Origin: Haloferax denitrificans ATCC 35960
GTDB taxonomy: Archaea > Halobacteriota > Halobacteria > Halobacteriales > Haloferacaceae
Direction of reading: 5' to 3'
Assembly: GCF_000337795.1 (NCBI RefSeq)
Contig: NZ_AOLP01000008.1
Location: 248,001-312,000, forward strand
Length of the DNA stretch: 64,000 nucleotides
How positions within the stretch are numbered: position 1 is the stretch's first letter; each line of letters starts with the position of its first letter. The position numbers and the translations under genes were made by a program. The notes beneath the pieces were generated by a model, which did not search any database, was not told the origin of the DNA, and worked only from the letters and a program-made list of their open reading frames with translations. Positions 12,683-57,048 of the stretch are shown here, one piece after another.

Positions 12683-12991
12683 CGCGAATCCGCGGTCGGA
12701 ACTCTTCGGAGATACCGCGAATATCCGCGATAGATGCGGCGTCAGTACGGAAACGCGCCGTTTCGTGACACGCGACCACGGTGGTCGGTGTCGCCATCGA
12801 TTCGAGACTGACCGCGAACTGTCTCTCAGAAGTCGACTGACCGGAGTTAGCTCTGAATTACAGTTCTATGAGCGTAATCTTTCGGGCGTATGGCCCGCCT
12901 CGAGGACGGAAACGTGCAATTATCGCCGTCGACCTCACCTCGACGGACGACCACCGCTGGTCGATTCAGTCCCGAATAAATTTCCGACACC

Positions 12992-20533: not shown

Positions 20534-21739
20534 ATGGAGATTACAGACATCTCAGCGACGAAAATCAGCAACGAATCGTGGGGCGAGTTCATCGAGTTCC
20601 CGCTCGTCACCATCATGTCGAAGTACGACGAGTACCGCAACGTCGACGGTGAGAACCCGCAGGCCCGCCGCAAGTGGATGGGTCCCGTGGGTGACGTGGT
20701 GGTCGAAGTCGAGACGGACGCGGGCATCACCGGCGTCGGCGTCGGCAACTGGGGTTCCGGGGCCATCGCCACCGTCGTCGAGGAGACGCTCTCGAAAATC
20801 GTCGTCGGTGAAGATCCGACACAGCGCGAGCTTCTCTGGGAGCAGATGTACCGCGCGACGCTCCCGTTCGGCCGGAAGGGCGTCGCCATCATGGCCATCA
20901 GCGCGGTCGACCAGGCGCTGTGGGACATCGCCGGGAAGGAAGCCGGCAAGCCGGTGTACGAACTGCTCGGCGGCCCCACCAAAGACGAGATTCCCGCCTA
21001 CGCGTCGAACCTCCACCCCGTCGACATGGAGAAGCTCGAACGCGAGGCCATCCAGTACGTCGAGGAGGGCTTCGACGCGATGAAGCTCCGCTTCCTCCAC
21101 GGTCCCGAGGACGGCCGCGCGGGCATGAAGAAAAACGAGGAAATCGTCGCGACGGTCCGCGATGCCGTCGGCGACGACATCGAAATCGCGGGCGACGCCT
21201 ACATGGGCTGGTCGGTCAAGTACGCGAAGGAGATGACCCAACGGCTCGGCAAGTACGACATGGCGTGGGTCGAGGAGCCGGTCATCGCCGACGACATCTC
21301 CGGCTACGCCGAGGTCCGCGAGGCCGCGCCGATGCCGATTTCGGGCGGCGAACACGAGTTCACCCGCTGGGGCCACGAGGACCTCCTCGAAGAGGGCGCG
21401 GTCGACATCCTCCAGCCCGACGTGGGCCGCGTCGGCGGTATCACGGAGCTCCAGAAGGTCGCCGACATGGCCGAGGTCCACGACGTGCCCGTCATCCCGC
21501 ACGCCGGCACGAACCCGACGCTCCACGCCATCGCCGGGCACACGAACATGCCGATGGCGGAGTACTTCCCGACCCCCGAGTGGTTCGAGGAGCGCCAGGA
21601 GAAACGCGAGTCCACCTACGCCGACGCCATCTTCCAGAACCCGCCGTCGCCCGAGAACGGGTCGATTCCGCTCCCCGACGAGCCCGGCGTCAGCACCCAA
21701 CTGAACCGCGAGGCGCTCGAACACTTCGCCATCGAGTAA
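20534..21739 (+). CDS. rhmD: L-rhamnonate dehydratase (enolase superfamily)
   Basis: 401 aa. Dehydrates L-rhamnonate to 2-keto-3-deoxy-L-rhamnonate. From memory it tracks E. coli RhmD closely: 'FPLVTIMSKYDEY' then WMGP near the N-terminus, 'SAVDQALWDIAGK', 'GPVYELLGG'-like region, an Mg-ligand series (D in AGDAYM, E in WVEEP, E in SGGEHE), DILQPDVGRVGG and the base-pair His in VIPHAG. The C-terminus 'DEPGVSTQLNRE' also matches the family. Its stop is 2 nt before the LLM gene start, so the two are co-translated. This assignment anchors the whole region as rhamnose catabolism. Confidence 0.92.
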   Translation: MEITDISATKISNESWGEFIEFPLVTIMSKYDEYRNVDGENPQARRKWMGPVGDVVVEVETDAGITGVGVGNWGSGAIATVVEETLSKIVVGEDPTQRELLWEQMYRATLPFGRKGVAIMAISAVDQALWDIAGKEAGKPVYELLGGPTKDEIPAYASNLHPVDMEKLEREAIQYVEEGFDAMKLRFLHGPEDGRAGMKKNEEIVATVRDAVGDDIEIAGDAYMGWSVKYAKEMTQRLGKYDMAWVEEPVIADDISGYAEVREAAPMPISGGEHEFTRWGHEDLLEEGAVDILQPDVGRVGGITELQKVADMAEVHDVPVIPHAGTNPTLHAIAGHTNMPMAEYFPTPEWFEERQEKRESTYADAIFQNPPSPENGSIPLPDEPGVSTQLNREALEHFAIE

Positions 21740-21741
21740 CG

Positions 21742-22770
21742 ATGTCTGACATCAGCTTCGAGTACAACGTCCCCGTCTTCGCCGGCGCGCCCGACGAGGG
21801 GACCGAGCCGACGCACCGCGACACCCCGGCGTACGAGTCGCTCGACTGGGAGGCGACCAAGATGGGCGTCCAGAAGGCGGAGGAACTCGGCTTCGACGCG
21901 GTGTGGGCACCCGACCACCTGCTTTTGGGCCGCGACCACGCCGAGTACGAGTGCTGGACGCTGTTGTCGGCCATCGCCGGCTTCACCGAGGACATCAACC
22001 TCGGCTCGCTCGTCCTCTGTAACGACTACCGCAACCCGGCGCTCGTCGCCAAGATGGCGGCCACGCTCGACGTGATTTCCGACGGTCGACTCGAACTCGG
22101 CCTCGGCGCGGGCTGGCACGAGCCGGAGTACGACGCCTACGGCTGGGAGTACCGCGACGGCTTCGAGCGCCTGATGCGCCTCGACGAGTCCATCCGCCTG
22201 ATGAAGCGCATGTGGGCCGCCGGCACGGACGGCGCGAGCTTCGACGGGAAGCACTACCAAATCGAGGACGCCTACTGCGTTCCCGGTCCCGTGCAGGACC
22301 CGCACCCGCCGATTCTCGTCGGCGGGCAGGGCGAGGAGGTCACGCTCAAACTCGTCGCCAAGCACGCCGACGTGTGGAACACCGACGTGTTCAACGGCGA
22401 CGTGGAGACGCTCGAACACAAAATCGACGTCATCGAAGACCACTGCGAGACCGTCGGCCGCGACCCCGACGAAATCGAGTACTCGTGGGACGGCCACGTC
22501 ATCTGTACCCGCGACGAGGGGAAGTTCGACCGCCTGCTCGACCTGATGACGCCCATCCAGTTCGAAGAAGAGTATCAGGACCAAGCGCCCATCGTGACGG
22601 AGGAAGACGCCCGCGAGTACTTCATCATGGGGACGCCCGAGGAGTGCGCGGAGGCCATCGAGCGCCGCATCGACGCGGGCGTGACGAAGTTCCAAGGCTG
22701 GTTCATCGACTTCCCCGATACCGACGGGATGGAACTGTTCGCGGACGAAGTCATCCCGCAGTTCAACTGA
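21742..22770 (+). CDS. LLM-class flavin/F420-dependent oxidoreductase in the rhamnose operon
   Basis: 342 aa luciferase-like TIM barrel. Seen: 'EELGFDAVWAPDHLLL', 'INLGSLVLCNDYRNPALVAKMAATLD', 'GRLELGLGAGWHEPEY' and 'HPPILVGGQGEEVTLKL', the usual cofactor-pocket blocks. Haloarchaeal members generally use coenzyme F420 or FMN. The gene begins 2 nt after the rhamnonate dehydratase stop, which strongly ties it to that pathway, yet no LLM step is part of the known route. F420-dependent glucose-6-phosphate dehydrogenase is in this superfamily, so a sugar C1 dehydrogenase role is conceivable. Function unproven. Confidence 0.85.
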   Translation: MSDISFEYNVPVFAGAPDEGTEPTHRDTPAYESLDWEATKMGVQKAEELGFDAVWAPDHLLLGRDHAEYECWTLLSAIAGFTEDINLGSLVLCNDYRNPALVAKMAATLDVISDGRLELGLGAGWHEPEYDAYGWEYRDGFERLMRLDESIRLMKRMWAAGTDGASFDGKHYQIEDAYCVPGPVQDPHPPILVGGQGEEVTLKLVAKHADVWNTDVFNGDVETLEHKIDVIEDHCETVGRDPDEIEYSWDGHVICTRDEGKFDRLLDLMTPIQFEEEYQDQAPIVTEEDAREYFIMGTPEECAEAIERRIDAGVTKFQGWFIDFPDTDGMELFADEVIPQFN

Positions 22771-22948
22771 GGCGTCCCGCGAGTCGAGCGCGCCGCGCTC
22801 GGTTCGCGCTCGCACTCGCGCTCTCGTTTTCGTTTCCGTCTTGGTTTCGCCGTTTCTGTCATTCGTCTATTCGAGCCCTCGCGGGGACCGAACCGTCCAG
22901 ATTCTCCCACACGTGGGGGTTCCGACTCGACGCACGACCCACGGAACA

Positions 22949-22967
22949 TTTCCGGCGATAGCGGAAA
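22949..22967. promoter_or_regulatory. Putative operator upstream of the rhamnose-region IclR gene (site C)
   Basis: TTTCCG-GCGATAG-CGGAAA, perfect 6-bp arms with a 7-nt spacer, centred 42 nt before ATG 23000. Its core TCCGG-CGATA-GCGGA differs by one base from the TCCGG-N5-CCGGA motif. The position suggests autoregulation. Confidence 0.5.
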
Positions 22968-22999
22968 GACATTTGAGGGATGAGGATTCATAACCAACT

Positions 23000-23758
23000 A
23001 TGGCGAAGGACGTTCCGGTCAACGCGGTCAAAATCTCGCTCGAACTCGTCGACCTCCTGCGGGAACTCGACGGGGCGGGCGTCTCGGAGGTAGCCAAGCG
23101 GCTGGACAAGCCGACCAGCACGATTCACGACCACCTGCGGACGCTGGAGAAACAGGAGTACCTCGTCAAGGAGGGCGACACCTACTACGTCAGCACGCGG
23201 TTCCTCCAGTTGGGCGCTCACGCGCGGTCGCGACAGAAGGTGTTCAACATCGCTCGCCCCGAGATAAACGAACTCGCGCAGGTGACCGGGGAGCACGCGA
23301 ACCTGATGATAGAGGAACACGGCGTCGGCGTCTTTCTGTACCGTTCGCGGGGCCCCGACGCCGTCCGCCTGGATACCCACGCTGGGATGCGCGTCCCGTT
23401 GCAGACGACGGCGCTCGGGAAGTCCATCATGGCGAACCGGCCGCGGGAGGAAGTCGAGCGAATCCTCGACCGCCACGGCTTGGAGTCGGTGACCGACCGC
23501 TCTATCACGGACCGCGAGGAGCTGTTCGACGTGTTGGAGCAGGTCCGCGAGCGCGGCTACTCGTACGACGACGAAGAGCGCGTCAAGGGCATGCGCTGTG
23601 TGGCCGCGCCGATACTCAACGAGGACGACTACGCCATCGCCGCCGTCAGCGTCTCGGGACCGAAAAGCCGGATGCGCGAGGAGCGCTTCACCGAGGAACT
23701 GCCGAACCAGATTCTCAAGAGCGCGAACGTCATCGAGGTGAACCTGACGTACTCGTAG
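23000..23758 (+). CDS. IclR family transcriptional regulator (rhamnose region)
   Basis: 252 aa. Winged helix-turn-helix at about 10-75 ('VSEVAKRLDKPTSTIHDHLRTL') and the IclR effector domain ('RVPLQTTALGKSIMANRP', 'GYSYDDEERVKGMRCVAAPI', 'IAAVSVSGPKSRMREER'). Encoded inside the rhamnose block between the LLM and FAH genes, so it probably controls these genes, sensing rhamnose or a breakdown product. A palindrome matching a repeated motif lies directly upstream. Distinct from the regulators at 9433 and 29105. Confidence 0.92.
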   Translation: MAKDVPVNAVKISLELVDLLRELDGAGVSEVAKRLDKPTSTIHDHLRTLEKQEYLVKEGDTYYVSTRFLQLGAHARSRQKVFNIARPEINELAQVTGEHANLMIEEHGVGVFLYRSRGPDAVRLDTHAGMRVPLQTTALGKSIMANRPREEVERILDRHGLESVTDRSITDREELFDVLEQVRERGYSYDDEERVKGMRCVAAPILNEDDYAIAAVSVSGPKSRMREERFTEELPNQILKSANVIEVNLTYS

Positions 23759-23842
23759 TCGACGGGCCGCGGACTCATCCCCGTCGTCGCAATCCTGCGT
23801 AGAGCGCAACAGTTACGTATCACGCTGTGGCAGAGTGTAACG

Positions 23843-24694
23843 ATGCAACTCGTTCGATACACCGCGGGCGGTGCCCCCGAGTGGGGCGTCCGCCGCGACG
23901 ACGACGTCGTCCCGCTTTCCGGCCTCCGCGAGGACGTCACCGTCCAGAACCTCAACAGCCCCGGCTTCCTCACCGTGGTCGAGGACGCCGCGGACGCCGC
24001 CGAGGACCAGTCGGTCCCCGTCGAGGACGTGAAACTCCTCGCGCCCGTGCCGCGCCCCGGCAAAATCGTCTGCGTCGGACTCAACTACCACGACCACGCC
24101 GAAGAGCAGGACGAGGAAGTCCCCGAGCGCCCGCTCCTGTTCGGCAAGGCCGGCACGTCCGTCACGAACCCCGGCGACCCCATCGTCCACCCGGCGGCCA
24201 TCGACGAGGTCGACTACGAGGTCGAACTCGGCGTCGTCATCGGGCAGACGGCAAAGAACGTGGACGCCGAGGACGCCTTCGACTACGTCGCGGGCTACAC
24301 CGCCATCAACGACGTGAGCGGCCGCGACGCGCAGTTCGACGACGGGCAGTTCTTCCGCGGCAAGAGCTACGACACGTTCGCCCCGATGGGGCCGACGTTC
24401 GTCCCCGAGGACGACCTCGACCCGCACGACCTCGACGTCGCCTGCCGCGTCAACGGCGAGACGAAACAGGAGTCCAACACCGCCGAGTTCATCTTCGGCG
24501 TCGACGAGGTCGTCGAGTACATCAGCGGCATCACGACGCTCCGACCGGGCGACGTCATCTCCACCGGCACGCCCGGCGGCGTCGGCATCTTCCGCGACCC
24601 GCCGGAACTGCTCGAACCAGGTGACAGCGTCGACGTGGAAATCGAGGGTATCGGCACGCTCACCAACCCCGTCGTCGCCGAGCGCGACGAGTAA
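23843..24694 (+). CDS. Fumarylacetoacetate hydrolase family protein, probable 2,4-diketo-3-deoxy-L-rhamnonate hydrolase
   Basis: 283 aa. An N-terminal cap of about 65 residues is followed by the FAH fold: 'KIVCVGLNYHDHAEE' with the catalytic His, DYEVELGVVIG with metal-binding Glu residues, 'GYTAINDVSGRDAQF' with a metal Asp, GKSYDTFAPMGP with the conserved Lys, and TGTPGGVG. In the rhamnose diketo-hydrolase pathway this family cleaves 2,4-diketo-3-deoxy-L-rhamnonate to pyruvate and L-lactate. Other FAH enzymes act on acylpyruvates, so the call depends on the adjacent RhmD, lactonase and mutarotase genes. Confidence 0.87.
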   Translation: MQLVRYTAGGAPEWGVRRDDDVVPLSGLREDVTVQNLNSPGFLTVVEDAADAAEDQSVPVEDVKLLAPVPRPGKIVCVGLNYHDHAEEQDEEVPERPLLFGKAGTSVTNPGDPIVHPAAIDEVDYEVELGVVIGQTAKNVDAEDAFDYVAGYTAINDVSGRDAQFDDGQFFRGKSYDTFAPMGPTFVPEDDLDPHDLDVACRVNGETKQESNTAEFIFGVDEVVEYISGITTLRPGDVISTGTPGGVGIFRDPPELLEPGDSVDVEIEGIGTLTNPVVAERDE

Positions 24695-24713
24695 CCGGCC
24701 GCAGTACAACACA

Positions 24714-24723
24714 CTTATTTATA
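24714..24723 (+). promoter_or_regulatory. TATA box of the downstream SDR gene
   Basis: CTTATTTATA, 23-32 nt before ATG 24746, the canonical spacing for a leaderless haloarchaeal promoter. Confidence 0.55.
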
Positions 24724-24745
24724 GGATATCGCGGTACTACCGACT

Positions 24746-25543
24746 ATGAGCACGCACACAGACACCCGACTGAGAGACAGGCATATCGTCGTCACCGGCG
24801 GCGCGCGCGGCATCGGCCGCGGCATCGCGGTTCGGTGCGCCCGCGCCGGTGCCGACGTATCGATTTTCGACACGAAACCCGAAGTGGCCGCCGAGACGGC
24901 CGACCTCGTCCGCGAGGAGGGCGGCGGGGCCGAGGTGTACGAGGTCGACGTGACCGACGCCGCGGGCGTCGAAACCGCCGTCGACGCCGCAATCGAGGCG
25001 CTCGGACCTATCCACGGCCTCGTGAACAACGCGGGCGTCCAGCAGGCAATCCCGCTCCTCGAAACGACCGAAGACGACTGGGACCTCCACTTCGAGGTGA
25101 ACGCCAAGGGGACGTTCCTCGTCTCCAAGGCCGTCGCCGCCCGGATGGTCGACGGTGACATCGGGGGGAGCATCGTCAACATCTCGTCGGTCGGCGCGGA
25201 GCGACCGTTCGCCGGACAGGGCGCGTACGGCGCGTCCAAGGCGGCCGTCCTCGCCTTCACGACCGTGCTGGCGAAGGAACTGAGCGACCACGGCATCACC
25301 GTCAACGCGCTCAAACCGGGCACCGTCGAGACGCCGATGGTCGAGGAATGGCTCGACGAACACGCCGAGCAGTCCGGCAAGTCCCCGGACGAAATCCTCG
25401 CGGAGACGCTCGACGTCCACATCCTCGACCGCATCGGTCAGCCCGAGGAAGTCGGCCACGTCGCAGTCCTGCTCCTCTCCGAGGAGGGCGACTGGATAAC
25501 CGGCGAGTCCATCGCGGTCGACGGCGGCTACCTCAAACACTAG
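24746..25543 (+). CDS. SDR family oxidoreductase, probable rhamnose-pathway dehydrogenase
   Basis: 265 aa classical short-chain dehydrogenase. Cofactor motif TGGARGIGRG, NNAG, catalytic Ser in NISSVG and YGASK, C-terminal 'ESIAVDGGY'. Asp in IFDTKP after the second strand suggests NAD preference. Last gene of the rhamnose block, 51 bp after the FAH gene with its own TATA box. It could be L-rhamnose 1-dehydrogenase or 2-keto-3-deoxy-L-rhamnonate 4-dehydrogenase; both are SDRs in characterised bacterial pathways. Enzyme choice is not resolved here. Confidence 0.88.
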   Translation: MSTHTDTRLRDRHIVVTGGARGIGRGIAVRCARAGADVSIFDTKPEVAAETADLVREEGGGAEVYEVDVTDAAGVETAVDAAIEALGPIHGLVNNAGVQQAIPLLETTEDDWDLHFEVNAKGTFLVSKAVAARMVDGDIGGSIVNISSVGAERPFAGQGAYGASKAAVLAFTTVLAKELSDHGITVNALKPGTVETPMVEEWLDEHAEQSGKSPDEILAETLDVHILDRIGQPEEVGHVAVLLLSEEGDWITGESIAVDGGYLKH

Positions 25544-26278: not shown

Positions 26279-26303
26279 AGATATTTCACGCCACCGTGTG
26301 AAA
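26279..26303 (+). promoter_or_regulatory. Promoter and operator-like inverted repeat of the RdfA-like gene
   Basis: GATATTTC-type TATA element at about 26279-26286, 26-33 nt before ATG 26312. Overlapping its end, TTTCAC (26284-26289) and GTGAAA (26298-26303) form a perfect 6-bp inverted repeat. A protein bound here would block transcription start. Confidence 0.45.
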
Positions 26304-26311
26304 AGCGGGTA

Positions 26312-26935
26312 ATGGGTACCGACCAAAGCACGAACCGTCGCCTAAGCAAGGTCGAACGGGTTATCGAAACGTACGATTTAGACGGCTTCGGCGAGCGACT
26401 CGCCGAGCGGTGGACGGCTCCCGAGGACAGCGACAGCCTCCGGGACCTCGCGGACCTGATGAACGAGAAGGTGCTCGACGCCGCGCTCCGGGAGGCGGGC
26501 GAGGACGTCCTCGAAGGCGAGGTCGAGAACCTGTACACGCTTCTCACCGGCGACGAGACCACGGAGGGGATGCGCGTGCAGGCGAAGAACACGCTCCAGT
26601 CCCGCGGCGTCGACGTCGACCAACTGCTCTCGGATTTCGTCTCTCATCAGGCGGTCTACACCTATCTGACGGAGATTCGCGGCGTCTCGAAGGACTCCTC
26701 GTCCGGAAACAGAATCGACAACGTCATCGAGTCCATCCAGCGACTCCGCGGCCGACTGGTCGCGGTCATCGAACAGAGCCTGAGCTCGCTCCGCAACACG
26801 AGCAAACTCCGGCTCGGCGACTTCGACGTCCTCGTGGACACGCAGGTGTACTGCCGCGACTGCGGGACGCAGTACGAGGTCATCGAACTGCTCCAGCGCG
26901 GCGGGTGCGACTGCGACGAGAGCGCATCGAACTAG
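26312..26935 (+). CDS. RdfA-like protein (rod-determining factor family)
   Basis: 207 aa. Recognised from memory as the haloarchaeal RdfA family, whose founding member is needed for rod-shaped cells in Haloferax volcanii. Seen: N-terminal 'KVERVIETYDLDGFGERL' and 'RWTAPEDSDSLRDLADLMNE' (wHTH-like), a central helix block with 'LLSDFVSHQAVYTYLTE', and a C-terminal zinc-ribbon-like end with CRDCG and CDCD. Cytoplasmic. Sits 79 bp before the SMC-like gene, the arrangement I recall for the H. volcanii shape locus (rdfA with sph3). Whether this copy is the shape gene or a paralogue cannot be decided here. Confidence 0.82.
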   Translation: MGTDQSTNRRLSKVERVIETYDLDGFGERLAERWTAPEDSDSLRDLADLMNEKVLDAALREAGEDVLEGEVENLYTLLTGDETTEGMRVQAKNTLQSRGVDVDQLLSDFVSHQAVYTYLTEIRGVSKDSSSGNRIDNVIESIQRLRGRLVAVIEQSLSSLRNTSKLRLGDFDVLVDTQVYCRDCGTQYEVIELLQRGGCDCDESASN

Positions 26936-27014
26936 ACGATTACATACTTAGTCCTGTCACATTCTCTCTAAGTCAACGGGTGATTTTATATTGGTGTACC
27001 TGTTGAGTCAAGGT

Positions 27015-28964
27015 ATGAGCTCAGAACAAGTGTCAAAATCCAAAGTCCACCTTTCGGTCGAGAACATCGGTGGCATCGACAATCTGTCAACGTCGTTCGA
27101 GCCGGGCGTAACGGTGTTGGCGGGTCGCAACGCAACGAACCGAACGTCGCTCTTGCGGTCCATCATGGCCGCACACGGAAGCGACGACGTCGCGCTCAAG
27201 GGCGACGCCGACGAGGGGTCGGTGGAACTCACCATCGGCGACGAGACGTACACTCGGACGTTCGAGCGGCAGGGTGACGCCGTCATCTCCGGCGGAGAGC
27301 CCGTCCTCGACGACCCGGACCTCGCGGACCTCTTTTCGTTCCTGCTCGAGACGAACGACGCCCGACAGGCGGTCGCCCGCGGCGACGACCTCCGCGACCT
27401 CATCATGCGTCCGGTCGACGTCGAGTCCATCAACGAGCAGATCGAGTCGCTCCAACAGGAGAAACGCGACATCGCCGACGAGCTCTCGACGCTCAGCAAC
27501 CTCTCTGACCGCCTGCCGCAACTCGAACGCCGGCGGACGAAGCTCGAAGGCCAAATCGAGGAGAAAGAAGACGAACTCGCGGAGAAAGAACAGGAGGTCG
27601 AGGAGTACGACGCCAGCGTCAGCGAGCGTCAGGAAGTCGAGAGCGAACTCGAATCGAAGCTCGGCGACCTCCGGAGCAAGCGCCGCGACATCAACGACGT
27701 CGACCGCCGCATCGAGACGGAGAAACAGAGCCTCGACGCGCTCGAATCCGAGGAAGACGAACTGGCGGACGACGCCGAGGACCTCCCGGAGGTCGCCGGC
27801 GGCAAAATCGACGAAATCGAGTCCGAAATCAGCCGGCTCCGGACGCGCCGGCAGGAGATTCAGTCGACCGTCAACGAGCTTCAGTCCGTGATTCAGTTCA
27901 ACGAGGAGATGCTCTCGGGAACCTCCTCGGACGTCGTCGACGCGCTCCGTGACGCCGACGATTCCGGCGGGAGCGTTACAGACCAGCTCCTCGGCGACGA
28001 CCAGGTCGTCTGCTGGACGTGCGGCTCCGAGGTCGACAAATCGGAAATCGAGGGGACGCTCGAACGTCTCCGGACGCTCCGCGAGGAGAAACTCGAAGCC
28101 AACCGCGAACACCGCGAACAGCTCTCCGAACTCGAAGACGAGAAGTCCACCTACGAGCGTCGCCAGCGCGAGCGCGACCGCATCGAGCGCCGCCTGTCGG
28201 AAATCGAAAGCGAGCGCGAGACGCGCCAAGAGCGCATCGAGGAGCTCAAATCCGAGCGCTCGGACCTCGAAGCCGAAATCGACTCGCTCGAACAGACCGT
28301 CGACGAACTCGAAAGCGAGGAACACGGCGACCTGCTCGACCTCCACCGCGAGGCGAACCAGCTCGAATACGACCTCGGACGCCTCCGCAGTGACCTCGAA
28401 GACGTCGAAGACGAAATCGACGACATCGAGCGCAAACTCGACGAGCGCGACGAACTCGAAGCGGCCCGCGAGGACATCGAAGACGAACTCGAAGAGCTTC
28501 GGACGCGCATCAAGCGCCTCGAATCCGAGGCCGTCGAGGAGTTCAACACGCACATGGACGACGTGCTCGACGTGCTCGAATACGACAACCTCGACCGCAT
28601 CTGGATCGAGCGCACCGAAAAGCGGGTTCGGGAGGGCCGAAGGAAGGTCACGAAGTCCGTCTTCGACCTCCACGTTATCCGGACGAACGAAGACGGCGTG
28701 AGCTACGAGGACTCCGTGGCGCACCTCTCGGAGTCCGAGCGCGAGGTGACCGGCCTCGTGTTCGCGCTCGCGGGCTACCTCATCCACGACGTCTACGAGA
28801 CGGTGCCGTTCATGGTCCTCGACTCGCTCGAAGCCATCGACTCGAACCGCATCTCGCGGCTCGTGGACTACTTCGCCGACTACGCCGACTACCTCGTCGT
28901 CGCCCTCCTCGAAGAGGACGCGCAGGCCGTCGACAGCGCGTACCCGCGCTACTCGCCGGCGTAA
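27015..28964 (+). CDS. Archaea-specific SMC-related coiled-coil protein (Sph3-like)
   Basis: 649 aa. A head-coil-hook-coil-head plan: N-terminal nucleotide-binding half (1-140), Glu/Arg-rich coiled coils (about 145-320 and 340-520), a central zinc-hook-like Cys333-x2-Cys336 (CWTC), and the C-terminal head half. The Walker A position reads GRNATNRT (37-44), with Arg43 in place of the essential Lys. The signature-like region reads LSESERE, and Walker B is VLDSLEA around Asp603, with Ser where catalytic Glu is usual. ATP hydrolysis is therefore doubtful. ATG 27015 is preferred to an in-frame GTG 24 nt upstream. Pairs with the RdfA-like gene; probably a cell-shape or signalling complex. Confidence 0.87.
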   Translation: MSSEQVSKSKVHLSVENIGGIDNLSTSFEPGVTVLAGRNATNRTSLLRSIMAAHGSDDVALKGDADEGSVELTIGDETYTRTFERQGDAVISGGEPVLDDPDLADLFSFLLETNDARQAVARGDDLRDLIMRPVDVESINEQIESLQQEKRDIADELSTLSNLSDRLPQLERRRTKLEGQIEEKEDELAEKEQEVEEYDASVSERQEVESELESKLGDLRSKRRDINDVDRRIETEKQSLDALESEEDELADDAEDLPEVAGGKIDEIESEISRLRTRRQEIQSTVNELQSVIQFNEEMLSGTSSDVVDALRDADDSGGSVTDQLLGDDQVVCWTCGSEVDKSEIEGTLERLRTLREEKLEANREHREQLSELEDEKSTYERRQRERDRIERRLSEIESERETRQERIEELKSERSDLEAEIDSLEQTVDELESEEHGDLLDLHREANQLEYDLGRLRSDLEDVEDEIDDIERKLDERDELEAAREDIEDELEELRTRIKRLESEAVEEFNTHMDDVLDVLEYDNLDRIWIERTEKRVREGRRKVTKSVFDLHVIRTNEDGVSYEDSVAHLSESEREVTGLVFALAGYLIHDVYETVPFMVLDSLEAIDSNRISRLVDYFADYADYLVVALLEEDAQAVDSAYPRYSPA

Positions 28965-28997: not shown

Positions 28998-29104
28998 CGC
29001 ACCCGCGACGAACCGTGTCGCGACCAGCACGTCCCGTTTCGAGTTACACTATTAGGAGTGTCACGAGATGGGGGACTGACGGCGACAGCGACGGGGCGGC
29101 GCGT

Positions 29105-29896
29105 TCAGGAGAGCGCGATGCTCAGTTCGAGTTCCTCGGCGATGCCGAGGAGGACCTCGGTGAGGCGGTCGAACTGCTCGCCTTTCATCCGATTGGAGGG
29201 GCCGGCGACGCTCAGCGCGCCGAACACGTCGCCGTCCGGTCCCATGACGGGGGCTCCGACCGCGCGGACCCCGCTAATCTGCTCTTCGACGTTGAGCGCG
29301 TAGCCGCGCTCTCTGATTTCGGCGAGTTCGTCGAACAGCGCCTCCTCGTCGTGAATCGTCTGTTCCGTCTCCTTGGGGAGGCCGACCCGGTCGATGATTT
29401 CGCGGACCCGCGCTGTCGGCATGTGGGCGAGGATGGCCTTCCCGCTCGCCGTCGAGTGGAGGTAGACGCGCTTCCCCACGGTCGACTGCGTCCAGACGCC
29501 GTGTTTTCCGGGTGCGGTGTGGACGTACACGCCCCGTCCGTGCTCTTCGACGGTGAAAATCGAGCGCCGCTCCGACTCCTCGGAGAGGACGTTGGTGTAG
29601 TGTTCGGCCTTCCCGAATTTGCGTTTCCGCGTCCGAACGAAGTTCCCGAGACCGAGGAAGCGAAGCCCGAGATGGTAGGTATCGCCCTCTTTAACCACGT
29701 ATTCCTGCGCTTCGAGAGTCGTCACGTGAGTGTGTGCGGTGCTCGGCGCGATGTCGAGTTCGCGGGCGATTTCGGTCACGCCCGCCCCGTCGCGTTCCCT
29801 GAGCAATTCGACGATTCTGAGGGTCGTGACCGTCGTTTTGAGCGAGCGGTCGTTCGCGGTTTCGGTCATTACCTGCGGGTCGTCACCATCGCACAT
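29105..29896 (-). CDS. IclR family transcriptional regulator (amide-catabolism region)
   Basis: 263 aa. Winged helix (about 20-85; 'GVTEIARELDIAPSTAHTHVTTL') plus IclR effector domain ('VYLHSTASGKAILAHMP', 'GYALNVEEQISGVRAVGAPV', 'GALSVAGPSNRMKGE'). Divergent from the M20 amidohydrolase gene across a 336-bp region, so it probably controls that gene and perhaps the downstream importer. An in-frame ATG at 29869 gives a start more typical of the family (MTETANDRS) and is a real alternative. The effector is unknown. Confidence 0.92.
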   Translation of the reverse strand: MCDGDDPQVMTETANDRSLKTTVTTLRIVELLRERDGAGVTEIARELDIAPSTAHTHVTTLEAQEYVVKEGDTYHLGLRFLGLGNFVRTRKRKFGKAEHYTNVLSEESERRSIFTVEEHGRGVYVHTAPGKHGVWTQSTVGKRVYLHSTASGKAILAHMPTARVREIIDRVGLPKETEQTIHDEEALFDELAEIRERGYALNVEEQISGVRAVGAPVMGPDGDVFGALSVAGPSNRMKGEQFDRLTEVLLGIAEELELSIALS

Positions 29897-43322: not shown

Positions 43323-44186
43323 ATGAAACGACATCTCCGCGTTCACATCGTCCCCCTGTGGCGCGAACACGACCGCATCGTCGGCCCCATCGAGGACGAC
43401 CGGCCGGACAAGGTCTACCTCCTCGAACACGAGGACCCCGCGGTCGAGCGGCCGACCTACCACGAGGCGGTCGTCGACCGCATCGCCGACGTGGTCGGCT
43501 CCCCGCCGGACGTCGAGTACTTGGACCTCTTCGACATGTACGAGGTGATGGGCGCGATTACGACCATCGCCGACTGGCACCCCGACGACTTCGTCCGCGT
43601 CAACGTCACCGCCGGCACCAAGCGCGCGGCCGTCGGCGCGACGATGGCCTGCATGGACGAACACACCGACGCCGAACCGTACGTCGTCGACCCCGAGGTC
43701 CGGCCGCACGGCCTCGACGCGCCGGTCACGGAGGGCTTCGCGCGGGCGTCGCTCCTGACGACCTACCAAATCGACTCGCCGTCCCCCGACCAGGTCGCCG
43801 CGCTCGCCTTCATCGAGGCCCACGACACCGACGCCAAACGCGCGAAAAAGAAGACGCTCATCACCGAGGCGGCCCGCTACGGCCTCGATTTCATGCGCGG
43901 CCGCGTCGACGGCGACGCCGAGGACTACGACCCCGTCACCGGCGACTACAACGTCCTCGACAACCGCGTCACCGCGACGCTCGAACATCAGGGCTACGTC
44001 ACGGTCACCCAGCGCGGAACCCGCCGGTACCTCGAACTCACGGAGGAGGGGAGACAGACGCTCCGCGCGTTCCGCCACCGGGCCGAATCGGTCGTCTCGG
44101 ACCTCGAAGCCCGGACCGACGACCCCTCCGAGAACGTCGATTTCGCCCTCGACAACCCGGTCGACGCGCTCGTGGAGAACCGGTAG
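43323..44186 (+). CDS. HFX_2341 family transcriptional regulator (DUF6293-like)
   Basis: 287 aa. The N-terminal alpha/beta domain (about 1-165) contains 'VRVNVTAGTKRAAVGATMA', a pattern I associate with CARF-type ligand-binding folds. The C-terminal part has a winged-helix region ('KKKTLITEAARYG', 'DNRVTATLEHQGYVTVTQRGTRRYLELTEEGRQTL'). It would bind a small ligand, possibly a nucleotide, and DNA. No CRISPR or effector nuclease gene is nearby. Known widely in haloarchaea, but its target is not known to me. Confidence 0.85.
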   Translation: MKRHLRVHIVPLWREHDRIVGPIEDDRPDKVYLLEHEDPAVERPTYHEAVVDRIADVVGSPPDVEYLDLFDMYEVMGAITTIADWHPDDFVRVNVTAGTKRAAVGATMACMDEHTDAEPYVVDPEVRPHGLDAPVTEGFARASLLTTYQIDSPSPDQVAALAFIEAHDTDAKRAKKKTLITEAARYGLDFMRGRVDGDAEDYDPVTGDYNVLDNRVTATLEHQGYVTVTQRGTRRYLELTEEGRQTLRAFRHRAESVVSDLEARTDDPSENVDFALDNPVDALVENR

Positions 44187-44291
44187 GACGAGGTGCCATC
44201 CCCGCGGTTACTGCCTCCGCCGGGCCCCCTCCCTCGTCCCTGCCGCTTCGAGGGAAACTGTTAGTACGGTCGCGGCGGGACACGAACATGT

Positions 44292-45521
44292 ATGCCCTCC
44301 AACATGCACACGCGCAGAGCCGTCCTCGCGGCTGGTGGCGCGACCGCCCTCGCGTCGCTCTCTGGCTGTGTCGCCCGCGCGCTCGGTGCCCTCGACGTCG
44401 AGCGAGACTACCGCCGCGACGCGCCCGTCGGCGACGTGACGGGCGCGTGGCCGACCTACCAGCGCGACTTCGCCAACACCGGTTACACGACCGACTCCGG
44501 CCCCTCGGCGGACGCGAGCGTCGAGCGAATCGCGTCCGGCGACGCGGCGCTCGCCACCTCGGTCGCGCTCGCCGACGGGCGGGGCGTACTCGGCCACAGC
44601 GACGGCGACGGGGAAGACGGCGTCTATCGCGCTCTCGACCTCGATTCCGAGACCGCCCCCGCCGAATCCGACGACGCATGGACCGTCGATTACGCGCACG
44701 GCAAGTCCACGCCCACGCTGGCCGGCGACGCGATGTTCGTCTCGACCGCCGAGTTCGTCGCGGCCTACGACGCTCGGACCGGCGAGCGGTGCTGGCGGAC
44801 GAGTAACGGCGGGTACGGGACCCCCGCGAACGCGCCGGTGCTCGCGGCGGGGACGCTCGTCGACGGCGGCGGGTCGACCGTCTTCGGGCGCGACCCGGCG
44901 ACTGGGAAGGAGCAATGGAGCTACGACGCCGGCGAGGCGTCTCCCGGACTCGTCGCCCGCGACGGCGTCGTCTACACGCCAATCGGCGTCGACCACGAGC
45001 AGACCGGCGTCGCCGCGCTCGACGCCGCGACCGGCGAGGAGCGGTGGCGGCGCGATGACCTCCCGCAGAGCGGCGTCCCGCTCGCAGTGGGCGATTCCCA
45101 TCTCTACTACAACGCCCACCGCGGGAACGTGTTCGCCCTCGCCCTCGAAGACGGGTCGACGCAGTGGCAGGCGTCGATTCCGCTCCCGGAGAACGGTAGC
45201 CCGCGGACCGCCGTCGCGGGCGACACGCTCCACGCCCAGACTTCGCGGGGGAGCCTCGCCGCGTTCGACGCCGCCGACGGCGCGACGAAGTGGTCGCTGT
45301 CGCTCGATGCGGATACGTTCGCCCGGCCGCCGGTCGTCGCCGACGACACCCGATTCGTGGCGAGCGACGACCGACTCTACGCCGTCTCGGCGGCGTCCGG
45401 CGATGAACTGTGGTCGAAGGCGCTCGACGCCCGACCGACGGGCGGTCTATCGGTCCGCGGCTCCGAGATTTACTTCGCCGGAATGGGACGGGACCCCGGC
45501 GTGTTCCGCGTGGCGGACTGA
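44292..45521 (+). CDS. PQQ-like beta-propeller lipoprotein (1 of 5 in this window)
   Basis: 409 aa. TAT-like RRAVLAAGG (8-16) and lipobox Cys26, then repeated blade motifs such as 'YDARTGERCWR', 'RDPATGKEQWSYD', 'LDAATGEERWR' and 'FDAADGATKWS'. It is predicted to be exported and membrane-anchored. The WxxD cofactor signature of true quinoprotein dehydrogenases is not evident, so a scaffold or BamB-like role is as likely as catalysis. An in-frame ATG at 44304 (MHTRR) is an alternative start. Convergent with the ABC-2 permease gene. Confidence 0.85.
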   Translation: MPSNMHTRRAVLAAGGATALASLSGCVARALGALDVERDYRRDAPVGDVTGAWPTYQRDFANTGYTTDSGPSADASVERIASGDAALATSVALADGRGVLGHSDGDGEDGVYRALDLDSETAPAESDDAWTVDYAHGKSTPTLAGDAMFVSTAEFVAAYDARTGERCWRTSNGGYGTPANAPVLAAGTLVDGGGSTVFGRDPATGKEQWSYDAGEASPGLVARDGVVYTPIGVDHEQTGVAALDAATGEERWRRDDLPQSGVPLAVGDSHLYYNAHRGNVFALALEDGSTQWQASIPLPENGSPRTAVAGDTLHAQTSRGSLAAFDAADGATKWSLSLDADTFARPPVVADDTRFVASDDRLYAVSAASGDELWSKALDARPTGGLSVRGSEIYFAGMGRDPGVFRVAD

Positions 45522-45582
45522 CGCCCGCGAGTCGTCGTCCGTCGCGATTGCGTTCCGCCCCGACCGACGACGCCAGCCCCCG

Positions 45583-47208
45583 TCAGTCGAACGTGTACGT
45601 CCGGTACCGCCGAATCGCGTAGCGGTACGAGCCGTAGGAGACGCCGACGGTGAGGAGGAGGTACAGTCCGAGTCCGGCGGCGAGAAGCGGCGTCGGAGCG
45701 AGGTGGCCGGTGACGCCGAACCACGTGGCGACGAGGCCGATGACGGTGCCGGGGCCGACGACGAACATGAACGCCATCAGCACGAGCGTCGAGGGGACGA
45801 CCGTCGTCGCGCCCCAGAACTCGCGTTCCTCGTATATCGGGTAGGCCGCGCCGAGGCCGACCGCGAAGGCCGCCGCGGCGAGGCACATGAACACGCCGAC
45901 GAGCGCGAACGCGACCGCCGACAGCGGCGGCGTACCGAGGGCGACCGTCGCCAGCGGGAGCGCCGCCGCGACCGGAACGCCGAGAATCGCGCCGGCGAGG
46001 ACGCGTCCACGGACCAGCGTTCGCGGCGCGGTCGCGGTCAACAGCAACAGCGGGAACTGCGGGCGGTCGTCGCCGATGGGGTTGAGGCCGAACGTCGCGC
46101 CCGCGAGGTAGGTCCCGAGGCCGGCCCCGCTCGCGGCGAGTATCGGGCCGAGTCCGTCGGCCGAGGACTGGACGATGGTCGTGCCGAGCGGGCCGAGGAA
46201 GAACACCAGCATGACGAGGTGCGTGAACTTCTGGGGGTGGCGCACGCCGCGGACGAGCAGGCCCCACGCGACGTGGCCGCCTTTCGTCGCCGCGAGGGGT
46301 CTCGGCGTCGAGAAGCCTCCGTGAGACCCGTCAGCCTTCGCGCTCGCCGCCGAGCCTCGGTCGCCTCCGGTCGCGTGGTCGGTGAACCAGAGCGCGCTGG
46401 CCTGCCGGGTGGCGACGACGAGGCCGACGGGTGTGAGCGCGACGATGGCCGCGAGGGTGGCGACGGCGGGCGCCGAGAACGGTCGAGCCAGCGGCGTTCC
46501 GACGAACGCGAGCGCGAGGTAGTCGGCGAGCGGGTCGAACGTCAGCGTCGCCGCCAGCGTGTCGACCGGGAGCGAGCCGTCGGCCAGCGACCGGCCGAAC
46601 GACTGCGAGACGAGGACGAGCCCCGCCATCGCGACGAAGCCGACGACCTTGAGCGTGCGCCGGACGCCGGGCAGGCGCTCGAATCCGCGGAGCACGGCGA
46701 CGCCGGCCGCGTAGCCCCAGACGGTCGTACAGCACGCGAGCGGGGCGACGACGGCGACCGCCGTCACCAAAAGCGACGGCGCGCCGAGGCCGGCCGTGAA
46801 CGTTGCGGCGACGACAGCGAACGGGAGTCCGAACCAGAGGCCGATGCGGCCGACTTCGGCCGCGATGAGTCCGACGACGACGGCCCGCGGGTGGACCGTC
46901 GTCAGCACGAGCGACTCGTGTTCGACGCGGCCGATGCGTTCGAGCGTCCGGAACGTCGCGAGGAGGGTGAGCACCACGGGGACCGCGGTGGCGACGAGGC
47001 CGAAGAGTGGAATCTCGGTCACGGACTGCGCGCGCCGGCCGGCGACGTAGACGACCGGGAGCGAAAACAGGAGGTTGCCGCCGAAGACCAACGCGAGAAG
47101 CAGGAGGCCGACGACTCGGCGCGTCTCGGAGGCGTATCCCCGGACGCTCCGAACGAACTCGGCGCGCCCGATTCGCAGGCCGTGGCGAACGTCTCGTCGC
47201 AGGCTCAT
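45583..47208 (-). CDS. ABC-2 type exporter membrane subunit (large, about 12 helices)
   Basis: 541 aa, hydrophobic throughout, with two six-helix halves separated by a hydrophilic loop (about 295-320, Gly/Ser/Ala-rich). The first cytoplasmic segment has 'RIGRAEFVRSVRGY', resembling ABC-2 permeases. Its start overlaps the stop of the ATPase gene in an ATGA, so the two form a translationally coupled two-gene exporter. Substrate not identifiable. It contains no catalytic motif of its own. Confidence 0.85.
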   Translation of the reverse strand: MSLRRDVRHGLRIGRAEFVRSVRGYASETRRVVGLLLLALVFGGNLLFSLPVVYVAGRRAQSVTEIPLFGLVATAVPVVLTLLATFRTLERIGRVEHESLVLTTVHPRAVVVGLIAAEVGRIGLWFGLPFAVVAATFTAGLGAPSLLVTAVAVVAPLACCTTVWGYAAGVAVLRGFERLPGVRRTLKVVGFVAMAGLVLVSQSFGRSLADGSLPVDTLAATLTFDPLADYLALAFVGTPLARPFSAPAVATLAAIVALTPVGLVVATRQASALWFTDHATGGDRGSAASAKADGSHGGFSTPRPLAATKGGHVAWGLLVRGVRHPQKFTHLVMLVFFLGPLGTTIVQSSADGLGPILAASGAGLGTYLAGATFGLNPIGDDRPQFPLLLLTATAPRTLVRGRVLAGAILGVPVAAALPLATVALGTPPLSAVAFALVGVFMCLAAAAFAVGLGAAYPIYEEREFWGATTVVPSTLVLMAFMFVVGPGTVIGLVATWFGVTGHLAPTPLLAAGLGLYLLLTVGVSYGSYRYAIRRYRTYTFD

Positions 47209-47981
47209 TCGTCGGCGACACCCGTCAGTCGCGTCTCGTCGCTCGTGACCGCGAGGAACGCGTCTTCGAGCGAGCCCTCGCCGCCCGTCTGGGCGCGCGA
47301 TTTCACCTCGTCGGGCGTCCCCTCGGCGACGACGCGGCCGTCGAACAGGACGCCGACCTCGTCGGCGACGGCCTCGACCACGGGGAGGATGTGCGTCGAG
47401 AGGAAGACGGTCGACCCCGAGGCGGCCACGTCGCCGATGGACGTTCGAATCTGTCTCGCCGCGCGGGGGTCGAGCCCCGAGGTCGGCTCGTCGAGAAACA
47501 GCACGTCCGGCTCGTGGAGCACGCTCTGGATGAACGCGGTCTTCTGTTTCATCCCCTTCGAGTACGTGCCGATGCGCTTGTTCGCGTCGCCGACGAGGCC
47601 GAACCGGTCGAGCAGGTCGTCGATGCGCGCCTCGGCGGTCTCCGCCGGGATGTCCCGGAGGTCGGCGACGTAGTCGAGTTGCTCGCGGGCGCTGAACTCG
47701 TCGTACAGCGGCGGCGTCTCCGGGAGGTAGCCGACGTGCGGCGCGAGTTTTCCGCGGTCGCTCACGTCGAGTCCGCAGATGCGGACCGACCCCGAGGTGG
47801 GCTGTGAAAGCCCCGTCAGGATGCGCATCGTCGTCGTCTTTCCCGCGCCGTTCGGCCCGAGAAAGCCGTACACCGTTCCGCTCGGAATCGACAGCGAGAC
47901 GCCGTCGAGCGCGACCTCGGAGCCGTAGGACTTCCTGAGGTCGACCGCTTCAATCGCGGCGTCCGCGTTCGTGGAGGGCAT
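47205..47981 (-). CDS. ABC exporter ATP-binding protein (CcmA/ABC-2 type)
   Basis: 258 aa single nucleotide-binding domain. Walker A GPNGAGKTTT (about 40-49), Q-loop 'YLPETPPLYDEF', signature region 'YSKGMKQK' (the YSxGMxx form typical of this class), Walker B 'LFLDEPTSGLD' and the H-loop STHIL. The C-terminal 30 residues are basic and short. It powers the membrane subunit encoded immediately downstream. Drug, lipid or protein export are all possible. Confidence 0.93.
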   Translation of the reverse strand: MPSTNADAAIEAVDLRKSYGSEVALDGVSLSIPSGTVYGFLGPNGAGKTTTMRILTGLSQPTSGSVRICGLDVSDRGKLAPHVGYLPETPPLYDEFSAREQLDYVADLRDIPAETAEARIDDLLDRFGLVGDANKRIGTYSKGMKQKTAFIQSVLHEPDVLFLDEPTSGLDPRAARQIRTSIGDVAASGSTVFLSTHILPVVEAVADEVGVLFDGRVVAEGTPDEVKSRAQTGGEGSLEDAFLAVTSDETRLTGVADE

Positions 47982-48060
47982 GGGACGACCCCCGATTCAC
48001 CCCCCTGACGCCTAACGGTTGCGAATGACACGTGAGCGACAGAACCTGCGGCGACTCGGC

Positions 48061-48124
48061 CGTCGTCTCAGGGAGTCGTCGTCTCAGGGTGTCGCCGCCT
48101 CAGGGTGCCGTCGTCTCGGGATTC
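48061..48124. repeat. Four 16-bp imperfect tandem repeats over the end of the membrane-protein gene
   Basis: Units such as CGTCGTCTCAGGGAGT and CGTCGTCTCAGGGTGT start at 48061, 48077, 48093 and 48109. The stop codon of the minus-strand gene (48100-48102) lies inside the third unit. The period is not a multiple of three, so copy-number change would alter the protein end. Confidence 0.6.
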
Positions 48125-48966
48125 GCCGGACGAATCGACCGGTAGAACGCCGTCGAGTAGGCGGCGAAGAAGCCGCCGACGAGACCGCTGACGAGCACGA
48201 GTCCGACCGCGACGACGACCATGCCGACGACGCCGACCGTCGGGAGACTCGAAAACGCCGACGCGGCGGGAGCGCCGGAACCCGCCCCGGCCACCGCGGC
48301 CCCCTGATGTCGGAGCGACGGGGTGAGCAGGAGCGAGATGACGACGGCGAACGCGCCGGCGAGGACGCCGCCGAGGCCGGTGATGACCGAGTAGCCGAGG
48401 ACCGACACGATGTTGTTCCTGACGCAGGAGACGCTCCGCTTGATGCCGTCGACCGCGCCGAGGTCGTCGATGACGATGGCGTGGCCGAAGAACTGCACGA
48501 CGAACACCACGGCGAGGTAGGTGAGAGCCACGGCGAGGACGACGACGCCCAGAACCGCGAGCGCGACGGTACTCATCTCGCCGTTGCTTCCGAGGACGGC
48601 GATGCCGACGAACACCGAGGCGAAGACGCCGACGAACGACAACACGAAGTTGACGACGAGCAGGGAGAAGTACACCACGAGCAGTGAGACGTAGTGCGTC
48701 TTCCCCTCGCTGACGAACGTGCCGAGCGAGGTGCGACCGTCGATGGCCTCGTTGGCCATACCGAGAACGCCGCCGAGGAAGAACGGGACGATGAATATCG
48801 TGAGTCCGCTGAACCCCAGCGAGATGATGCTCCCGATGAACGGGCTGACCGCCTGCGCGAACACCGACGGGAGTTGAATCAGGCTGAACGCCATGGCGAC
48901 GACGAACAGTATCGGGTTCCGTCTGAGGGACCCGGCGGCTGTACCGATGGATTGGAGGGCTGACAT
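48100..48966 (-). CDS. Multi-helix membrane protein of unknown function
   Basis: 288 aa. Predicted helices at about 17-60 (two), 85-110, 115-140, 155-175, 185-215 and 235-275, with Ala/Gly/Val-rich composition. It resembles the DUF6159/DUF7847 haloarchaeal membrane proteins, but I make the family call only loosely. ATG 48966 (MSALQSIG) is preferred over an in-frame GTG at 48975. The C-terminus is encoded by a 16-bp tandem repeat. It lies alone between the exporter and a hydrolase gene, all on the minus strand. Confidence 0.75.
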   Translation of the reverse strand: MSALQSIGTAAGSLRRNPILFVVAMAFSLIQLPSVFAQAVSPFIGSIISLGFSGLTIFIVPFFLGGVLGMANEAIDGRTSLGTFVSEGKTHYVSLLVVYFSLLVVNFVLSFVGVFASVFVGIAVLGSNGEMSTVALAVLGVVVLAVALTYLAVVFVVQFFGHAIVIDDLGAVDGIKRSVSCVRNNIVSVLGYSVITGLGGVLAGAFAVVISLLLTPSLRHQGAAVAGAGSGAPAASAFSSLPTVGVVGMVVVAVGLVLVSGLVGGFFAAYSTAFYRSIRPANPETTAP

Positions 48967-49119
48967 ACTGACCACGTCTCCGCATCGAGCAAAGAATGTT
49001 TGGTTGACTGGTCGTCGCGTGTGGTCCGCGCCTCGAACCGCGAGCCGCCCGGAGACGACTGCGAAACGGCTCGTGCTTCCGCAATTGTCGTCACACGAGT
49101 ACCGGCGTGGTCGGCGTTT

Positions 49120-49938
49120 TCACGGGTGAGCGACCCGGTCACGAATGAACGAATCGACCGCGGCCGCGACGCGTTCGGGGTCGTCGCCGGGGCCGCCGTG
49201 GCCGAGCGCGTCGAACTCGACGAACCGACTGGTCGGGAGGGCGTCGTGGACGTTTCGGGCGCTCTCGCGGAGGAAATCGGGGCCGTCGGTGCCGGCCAAG
49301 ACCACGGCGGGCGCGTCCACGTCCAAGCGGGCCGGAAGCCGGTACTGCTCGACGGCGCGATTCATCCGGACGACCTCCTCGGCGAGGGCGACGCAGTCGG
49401 GCCAGACGGGCCACTCGTCGAGCCACGCGTCGAGGTCGTCGATGCCGTCGGGGTGGAGCACCTGCTCGACGTAGCGTTTGACCGCCTCGCGTCGCTCCCC
49501 CGCCTCCACGAGCGCGGCCATGCGCTCCGAGAGGTCCGCCTCGGCTCGGTACGCTTCCGGGAGCACCGCCGGTTCGTAGGCGGCGACGGCGGCCACCCGC
49601 GCGTCGGTCGCCGCTTCGAGGGCGGTGAGCGCGCCGTAGGAGTGACCGAACAGCGCCGGGTCGCGCCCGGTCGCCGCGCGAATCTCGTCGACGAGTTCAC
49701 GGACGTACTCGGCCTCGCGCTCCAGCACCGCCTCGGGGGGCGTCGTCTCGGCGTCGTCCAGACAGGTGCCGAAGCCGGGTCGCTCCGGGACGACGACCTC
49801 GTACCCATCGAAGTGCGGGACGATTGGGTCCCAGAACGCCGGTGGTGCCATCCCGCCGTGACAGCACAGAAGCGGCGTGCCGCTCCCGAATCGCTCGTCG
49901 GACAGTTCGACTCCGGGTTCGAATCGAATCGGTTGCAT
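49120..49938 (-). CDS. Alpha/beta hydrolase
   Basis: 272 aa. Oxyanion region LLCCHGG, nucleophile elbow GHSYG (Ser near residue 99), an alpha-helical lid (about 125-180), an acid Asp in 'LAGTDGPDFL' and a catalytic His in 'ALGHGGPGD'. Cytoplasmic serine hydrolase acting on an ester, lactone or peptide. Shares its upstream region (about 130 bp) with the divergent HTH regulator gene. No substrate can be inferred. Confidence 0.88.
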   Translation of the reverse strand: MQPIRFEPGVELSDERFGSGTPLLCCHGGMAPPAFWDPIVPHFDGYEVVVPERPGFGTCLDDAETTPPEAVLEREAEYVRELVDEIRAATGRDPALFGHSYGALTALEAATDARVAAVAAYEPAVLPEAYRAEADLSERMAALVEAGERREAVKRYVEQVLHPDGIDDLDAWLDEWPVWPDCVALAEEVVRMNRAVEQYRLPARLDVDAPAVVLAGTDGPDFLRESARNVHDALPTSRFVEFDALGHGGPGDDPERVAAAVDSFIRDRVAHP

Positions 49939-50070
49939 CGCACTCTCGCTTGTCGCCGGCGGCGGCTAAGTCGCACTCTCAGCCGTGCGGCCGTTTACAT
50001 GGGGGCGGAAGACGGCGACTGTCTCGGCCGCTCCGACACGCCCTTGACCGACCGCCGAGAGGGCGGACGT

Positions 50071-50757: not shown

Positions 50758-50834
50758 AGAACAACGAGCCGACGGCCCGACCACCAGACGAGCCGGCGGC
50801 CCGACCAGTCGAGTGACGGCCGGCGACGGACGCC

Positions 50835-53344: not shown

Positions 53345-53471
53345 ACGCCCGCCGTCTCGGCGCGGGGTAAAAGGCTTCGTGGCTTTCCGCTCGGAGACCC
53401 GCCGGCCGAGGCCGGTCGCGCCGCCGTCGAAACCAACAGGAGTATTATCAACCGGGTCACACGTTCCCGCG

Positions 53472-55908: not shown

Positions 55909-56001
55909 CGCCGCGTCCCCGACCCCTCGATTCGACGACGCGCTCCCCACCAACTTATTGCCGTGCCGAGGGGATACTCCGCCAACGAGGGACACGAACC
56001 G

Positions 56002-57018: not shown

Positions 57019-57048
57019 GTCGGCCGTCTCGCCCTCCGTGCGCCGTGT

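Follow-up and report, generated by a model that had tools for sequence, protein, structure and literature searches.

The window analysed here is the whole 64,000-nucleotide stretch of the Haloferax denitrificans ATCC 35960 genome, located on a 380-kb contig. It contains an adjacent pair of genes encoding an RdfA paralogue and an SMC-like protein of the archaea-specific SMC-related protein family (ASRP). Both open reading frames were found as a preliminary description from sequence alone had reported them, and their families were confirmed by profile searches. The RdfA protein matched PF21811 (249.5 bits, cut-off 27) and adjoins the SMC-like gene, and the ASRP matched NCBIfam NF045487 over its full length (709.9 bits, cut-off 300). 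The arrangement is common in the family, with an RdfA gene located within 1.5 kb of the ASRP gene in 61 of 75 non-redundant loci picked by similarity to the window ASRP. ATG 27015 is a likelier start for asrp than TTG 26991 because of the conserved TATA-like box 27 nt upstream of it. The two TATA-like boxes, read by haloarchaeal promoter rules, suggest that rdfA and asrp probably each have their own leaderless promoter. The coordinates of all features are collected in Table 1.

Table 1. Features of the rdfA–asrp locus and its flanks (window positions)
Feature	Position	Strand	Basis
L-rhamnose catabolism genes	20534..25543	+	sequence; rhcF annotation of similar gene
Rhamnonate-dehydratase-like enolase	20534-21739	+	
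Luciferase-like oxidoreductase	about 21832-22686	+	
IclR-family regulator, rhamnose side, ~2.5 kb 5' of rdfA	23000..23758	+	sequence
FAH-type 2,4-diketo-3-deoxy-L-rhamnonate hydrolase	23843-24694	+	
SDR	24746-25543	+	
TATA-like box, ~28 nt 5' of rdfA ATG	26281..26286	+	sequence; conserved in close orthologues
rdfA paralogue, 207 aa	26312..26935	+	RdfA family PF21811, Pfam
IclR-type palindrome ATTACATACTTAGTCCTGTCAC, 5' of asrp, 2 mismatches to ATTACA-N10-TGTAAT	26939..26960	.	sequence
TATA-like box TTTATATT, 5' of asrp ATG	26985..26992	+	sequence; conserved in orthologues, including 80% identical ones
ASRP/SMC-like protein (asrp), 649 aa from the ATG	27015..28964	+	NF045487
Degenerate Walker A GRNATNRT (Gly to Asn, Lys to Arg)	27123..27146	+	sequence, alignment
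Zinc-hook CWTCG	28011..28025	+	sequence, alignment
Signature-motif position LSESERE	28725..28745	+	sequence, alignment
Walker B and D-loop position MVLDSLEAID (catalytic Glu to Ser)	28812..28841	+	sequence, alignment
Weaker palindrome GTTACACTATTAGGAGTGTCAC, 3 mismatches, between asrp and IclR gene	29043..29064	.	sequence
IclR-family regulator, convergent with and directly 3' of asrp, position of HVO_B0119	29105..29896	-	IclR_C match

The neighbourhood of the pair is catabolic on both sides. Upstream lies an L-rhamnose cluster comprising an ABC transporter, a dehydrogenase, the enolase, the luciferase-like gene, an IclR regulator, the diketo-hydrolase and the SDR, and the carbohydrate setting claimed in the preliminary description was thereby borne out. 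Downstream of asrp are a second IclR gene, 141 bp from the asrp end, an M20 amidohydrolase and a peptide-type ABC transporter. The core gene order around the pair is common to six Haloferax species, and in a more distant Haloferax an 80% identical pair is located beside different catabolic genes and a different IclR gene. Elsewhere in the window, the stretch 44001-58000 has a G+C content of 0.71-0.73, markedly above the rest.

The genome contains three RdfA/ASRP pairs on three contigs, so that the window pair is a paralogue, as had been proposed, and not a single housekeeping pair. The copy on contig C10 is matched at similar identity in nearly every Haloferax genome searched, with the counterpart on the largest replicon wherever that is assembled, and is taken here as the presumptive Sph3. 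The copy on contig C15 is of the Sph1 type and is 90% identical to copies on pHV4-sized plasmids. In Haloferax volcanii, Sph2 (HVO_B0118) and Sph4 (HVO_B0173) are both encoded on pHV3, and HVO_B0113 has been described as a distant relative of Rv0132c, i.e. a luciferase-like protein. In the window, asrp is the fifth gene after the luciferase-like one (order luciferase-like, IclR, FAH, SDR, RdfA, ASRP), and no other luciferase-like gene fits. As this spacing equals that from HVO_B0113 to HVO_B0118, the window ASRP is probably the orthologue of Sph2, which likewise belongs to this family and has an adjacent RdfA gene; the match is one of gene order. By position, the IclR gene downstream of asrp is probably HVO_B0119.

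This assignment bears on the expected phenotype. Deletion of sph2 in H. volcanii gives rods in all growth phases, over-swarming and slightly slow growth, reduces survival in a gene-conversion assay to ~3-5%, and is not combinable with loss of Sph4 (PMC11276520). Sph2 is also among the proteins found with Cas1 (PMC9051519). The characterised sister pair RdfA/Sph3 (HVO_2174/2175) belongs to the same family and has the same adjacent arrangement but, unlike Sph2, whose loss gives rods, is needed for rods (PMC10869688, PMC11276520). The earlier statement that RdfA relatives set rod shape therefore does not cover the whole family, as Sph2, the orthologue indicated by gene order, promotes disks and is needed for gene conversion. 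The introduction of one paper describes Sph3 as a plate-maintaining factor (PMC13286277); the original report had the opposite, deletion of sph3 giving only disks.

To place the neighbourhood in context, the flanks of the 75 loci were compared. An IclR-family gene was located within 1.5 kb of the pair in 33 of them. IclR density was 170/Mb at 0-1.5 kb and 11/Mb at 3-10 kb of the same flanks, a 15-fold difference (38 versus 10 genes, p ~2e-18); the genome-wide density was ~1.6/Mb across 39 genomes. In an evenly drawn genome sample the association was weaker but clear, with at least 8 of 47 ASRPs having an IclR gene within 2 kb where 0.3 were expected. Apart from RdfA, no gene family as frequent as IclR was found beside the pairs in the loci surveyed. 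The neighbourhood is thus not random. The adjacent regulators are scattered over the IclR tree, with 26 label changes of which at least 18 are forced (a few cut regions having been labelled by hand), and the idea of a single-origin third component of the pair was rejected for this reason.

In Halobacterium salinarum, the founding sph1 (Hp71) and rdfA (L254:3868-7887) adjoin an IclR gene and the arginine-fermentation genes arcA, arcC and argF. Such an arginine-deiminase cluster fits as a second catabolic setting for a pair of this kind. Across 145 Halobacteria genomes, the RdfA and IclR families were concordant in 137, being both present in 120 and both absent in 17, with one family only in 8 (5 and 3); these counts ignore kinship.

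A palindrome, ATTACA-N10-TGTAAT, was found close to many of these genes. The window contains four sites with at most 2 mismatches against 0.06 expected; in addition to the one ahead of asrp, perfect or near-perfect copies are located near other catabolic genes at 5625-5646, 12857-12878 and 63292-63313. The asrp site is imperfect in this genome and perfect in the 80% identical orthologue on pHG3. Among the 75 loci, 37 have a palindrome with at most 3 mismatches in the 260 bp upstream of asrp. With at most 2 mismatches allowed, 26 of the 34 loci that have an IclR neighbour and 17 of the 41 that lack one had a site inside or close to the pair, where ~7% was expected. A reversed control pattern was nearly absent. 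The palindrome was also found near 15 of 32 IclR genes that have no close ASRP, compared with 12% of random 2-kb stretches. In 145 genomes, the number of exact copies tracked IclR gene number (rho 0.56); with IclR allowed for, it did not track the number of RdfA genes. Because the counts follow IclR and the sites adjoin IclR genes lacking an ASRP, ATTACA-N10-TGTAAT is most likely an IclR-family operator; the alternative that the palindromes are RdfA sites was dropped as first choice on the same genome counts.

With a predicted operator ahead of asrp and an IclR gene just downstream, the window pair is probably under IclR control, a reading based on gene and motif positions. Points against it are that an adjacent IclR gene is present in only some half of the close relatives and one-sixth of the even sample, that the asrp palindrome is imperfect here, and that the convergent downstream regulator may have nearer targets in the M20 and peptide-transport genes. 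No IclR neighbour was seen at the other two pairs of this genome, the chromosomal Sph3 and the pHV4-type Sph1, which indicates that the linkage is not required for function. The main rival is that the pair merely sits at junctions between megaplasmid catabolic blocks, most of which end in an IclR regulator gene, pair and IclR-regulated operons both being accessory and the palindromes serving the regulators' own operons. Two different catabolic blocks do meet at the window pair, the adjacent regulators belong to many lineages, and both families are accessory and absent from largely the same genomes. Such hitch-hiking is nevertheless rather unlikely as the explanation, given the concentration of IclR genes at 0-1.5 kb relative to 3-10 kb of the same flanks, the palindromes at the promoter position of asrp even in loci with no nearby IclR gene (e.g. 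L084 and L085), and the orthologous pairs of 80-97% identity found beside different IclR genes in different catabolic settings.

The second property of the pair concerns the ATPase head of the ASRP. The canonical Walker A motif is GxxGxGK[ST]. In the window protein it reads G36-R-N-A-T-N-R42-T43 (numbering of P0001), so that the third and last Gly and the Lys are both replaced (N41, R42). The hook is C332-W-T-C335, the signature position lies at 570-576 and Walker B has D602-S603. Where an active SMC/Rad50-type ATPase would have the Walker A Lys, LSGG and the Walker B Glu, the protein has NRT, LSES and DS; the motif positions are present and the key residues absent, as is the case for the whole Sph2/3/4 clade. 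The motifs and the CxxC hook were thus as first described, the hook being CWTC.

The distribution of these replacements was examined among ASRPs collected with search patterns that excluded Walker A. Walker A ends in NRT in 126 of 133 full-length ASRPs and LSESERE is present in 125 of the 133, nearly all NRT members also having Ser after the Walker B Asp; the CWTC hook was found in 152 of 178 long ASRPs. The replacement residues are invariant across 40 aligned sequences with a mean column identity of 63%, although for the signature this invariance must be read with the partial inclusion of that region in one search pattern. Sph1-type paralogues, including Halobacterium Sph1, have ASN[WF]QGKSS, LSEGE and Asp-Gly or Asp-Arg, and lack the Walker B Glu. 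Both GK[ST] and the Walker B Glu are retained by the three ASRPs G173:C2, G200 and G241, which come from other classes of the phylum, and other non-halobacterial ASRPs retain GK[ST] with Asn or Asp at the Glu position.

In the head tree, NRT members form one clade (support 99/95), the outgroup branches being long and the root and outgroup order unsure. The simplest history would be that haloarchaea first lost the catalytic Glu and that the Sph2/3/4 line later lost the P-loop Gly and Lys as well, a state that then became fixed. The Arg thus does not mark a special copy but is a clade-wide trait, near-universal in haloarchaeal Sph2/3/4 and with one origin on the tree. In the comparison across pairs that had been proposed as a check, the Arg is thus found in 126 of 133 full-length ASRPs, Sph1-type copies keeping GKS.

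With the Gly and Lys of the P-loop, the Gly-Gly of the signature and the Glu of Walker B all lost, the ASRP should not hydrolyse ATP. Motifs that have decayed and yet do not vary point most naturally to a non-hydrolysing head, as the preliminary description had ventured. We regard the window ASRP with considerable confidence as an old, fixed pseudo-ATPase. A P-loop Arg may in principle still bind nucleotide, which counts against this reading. An active but unorthodox enzyme, in which Arg42 and other residues substitute for the canonical ones and the head cycles with ATP, would account for the invariance of the replacements, for the retention in the alignment of the Walker A Thr, signature Ser and Walker B Asp, and for the intact head fold in the predicted structure and fold matches. 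It is improbable, since four catalytic features have gone together and the Walker B Glu is already missing in Sph1-type paralogues.

The AlphaFold2 model of the ASRP has an SMC/Rad50-like head and coiled coils (mean pLDDT 83.7). Its nearest solved folds are Rad50, Smc5/6, MukB and Lamassu LmuB, with 7zr1 the best Foldseek match; no solved relatives were found by sequence. A defence-system reading was rejected, as the PADLOC matches to LmuB, JetC and PbeC cover chiefly the coiled coil and partner genes of Lamassu or Jet type were not seen. The RdfA model (pLDDT 91) has a helical N-terminal domain, a long helix at 131-162 and a zinc-ribbon-like C-terminal end with CxxC...CxC. Against the PDB, this confident model gave no match, whether to a kleisin or winged-helix KITE fold or to any other, at E<=0.001 and none above Z 5.

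With other members of the ASRP family, including Sulfolobus coalescin ClsN and Halobacterium Sph1, the window protein shares N- and C-terminal head halves, coiled coils, a Cys zinc hook and NF045487 (PMC9389158). It differs in that its clade lacks the P-loop Gly and Lys, whereas Sph1 keeps GKS and several non-halobacterial members keep GK[ST] and the Glu. The published survey of the family, in the parts consulted, gives Walker A and B as present and does not mention the residue loss of this clade (PMC9389158). Rad50/SbcC have the head fold and Cys hook in common with the window ASRP but, unlike it, possess canonical catalytic motifs, and the recurrent partner gene of the ASRP is RdfA and not Mre11. 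Arcadin-4 is also SMC-like and tied to cell shape, associating with crenactin, but is placed with Rad50 and not ASRP in the published tree (PMC10869688, PMC9389158).

At the start of three haloarchaeal plasmids, the pair has a ParA-family gene no more than a few kb away (L194:575-2584, L195:409-5776 and L196:11220-16154). In Natrinema gelatinilyticum, four one-mismatch palindromes with 40 bp spacing form an array-like row just after the ASRP gene (L133:12010-12190). A role in replicon maintenance, with RdfA binding palindromes as a centromere-like mark and loading its SMC-like partner for megaplasmid segregation or copy equalisation, would accommodate this row, the occurrence of the module on more than 100 plasmid records, ParA nearby in 3 of 4 plasmids inspected and 7 of 80 loci, and the impaired gene conversion on Sph loss, but is very unlikely given that ParA linkage is rare, that palindrome numbers are not tied to RdfA once IclR is allowed for, and that the triple sph1/3/4 deletion of H. 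volcanii grows normally (PMC11276520).

On balance, the explanation we lean towards is a non-hydrolysing, SMC-like structural pair that has repeatedly been put under IclR, and hence nutrient, control. The pair would be the RdfA/ASRP pair of Sph2 type that is encoded on a Haloferax megaplasmid. Its ASRP head would keep the fold and dimerise through the coiled coil and Cys hook. Accompanied by RdfA, the ASRP would act as a clamp or filament, either static or gated by nucleotide, on DNA or on a partner from the cytoskeleton. That RdfA and ASRP act together, presumably as a complex, is likely because their genes are adjacent both in published work and in this analysis. The pair would influence the rod/disk choice via chromosome architecture or recombination, a DNA-side role being favoured by the gene-conversion phenotype of the sph2 deletion. 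The IclR-type palindromes by the asrp promoter would probably place pair dosage under nutrient control. In the link between nutrient state and shape suggested at the outset, the nutrient part is backed genome-wide by IclR adjacency and IclR-type palindromes; that substrates physiologically alter cell shape via the pair is doubtful.

Both protein families are already known, and a deletion of the H. volcanii counterpart has been published. The clade-wide loss of ATPase residues, the IclR association and the palindrome were not found in a search of the open literature, which did not extend to subscription papers, so that priority is uncertain.

SMC proteins are textbook ATP-driven DNA machines. 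A large, ancient clade without the ATPase but with the fold, hook and partner would indicate that proteins of SMC architecture can function without hydrolysing ATP, a proposition that the genetics of Haloferax make testable. More speculatively, and with small probability, a clade of dead-headed SMC proteins, each with an RdfA partner, may serve IclR nutrient sensors in haloarchaea as interchangeable output modules, so that every catabolic island would have its own sensor and shape or chromosome module; if so, cell shape or recombination would be tuned to substrate. The palindrome provides a concrete predicted operator, and an IclR link would tie metabolism to the rod/disk switch and gene conversion in polyploid archaea, a connection left open by the cell-shape papers.
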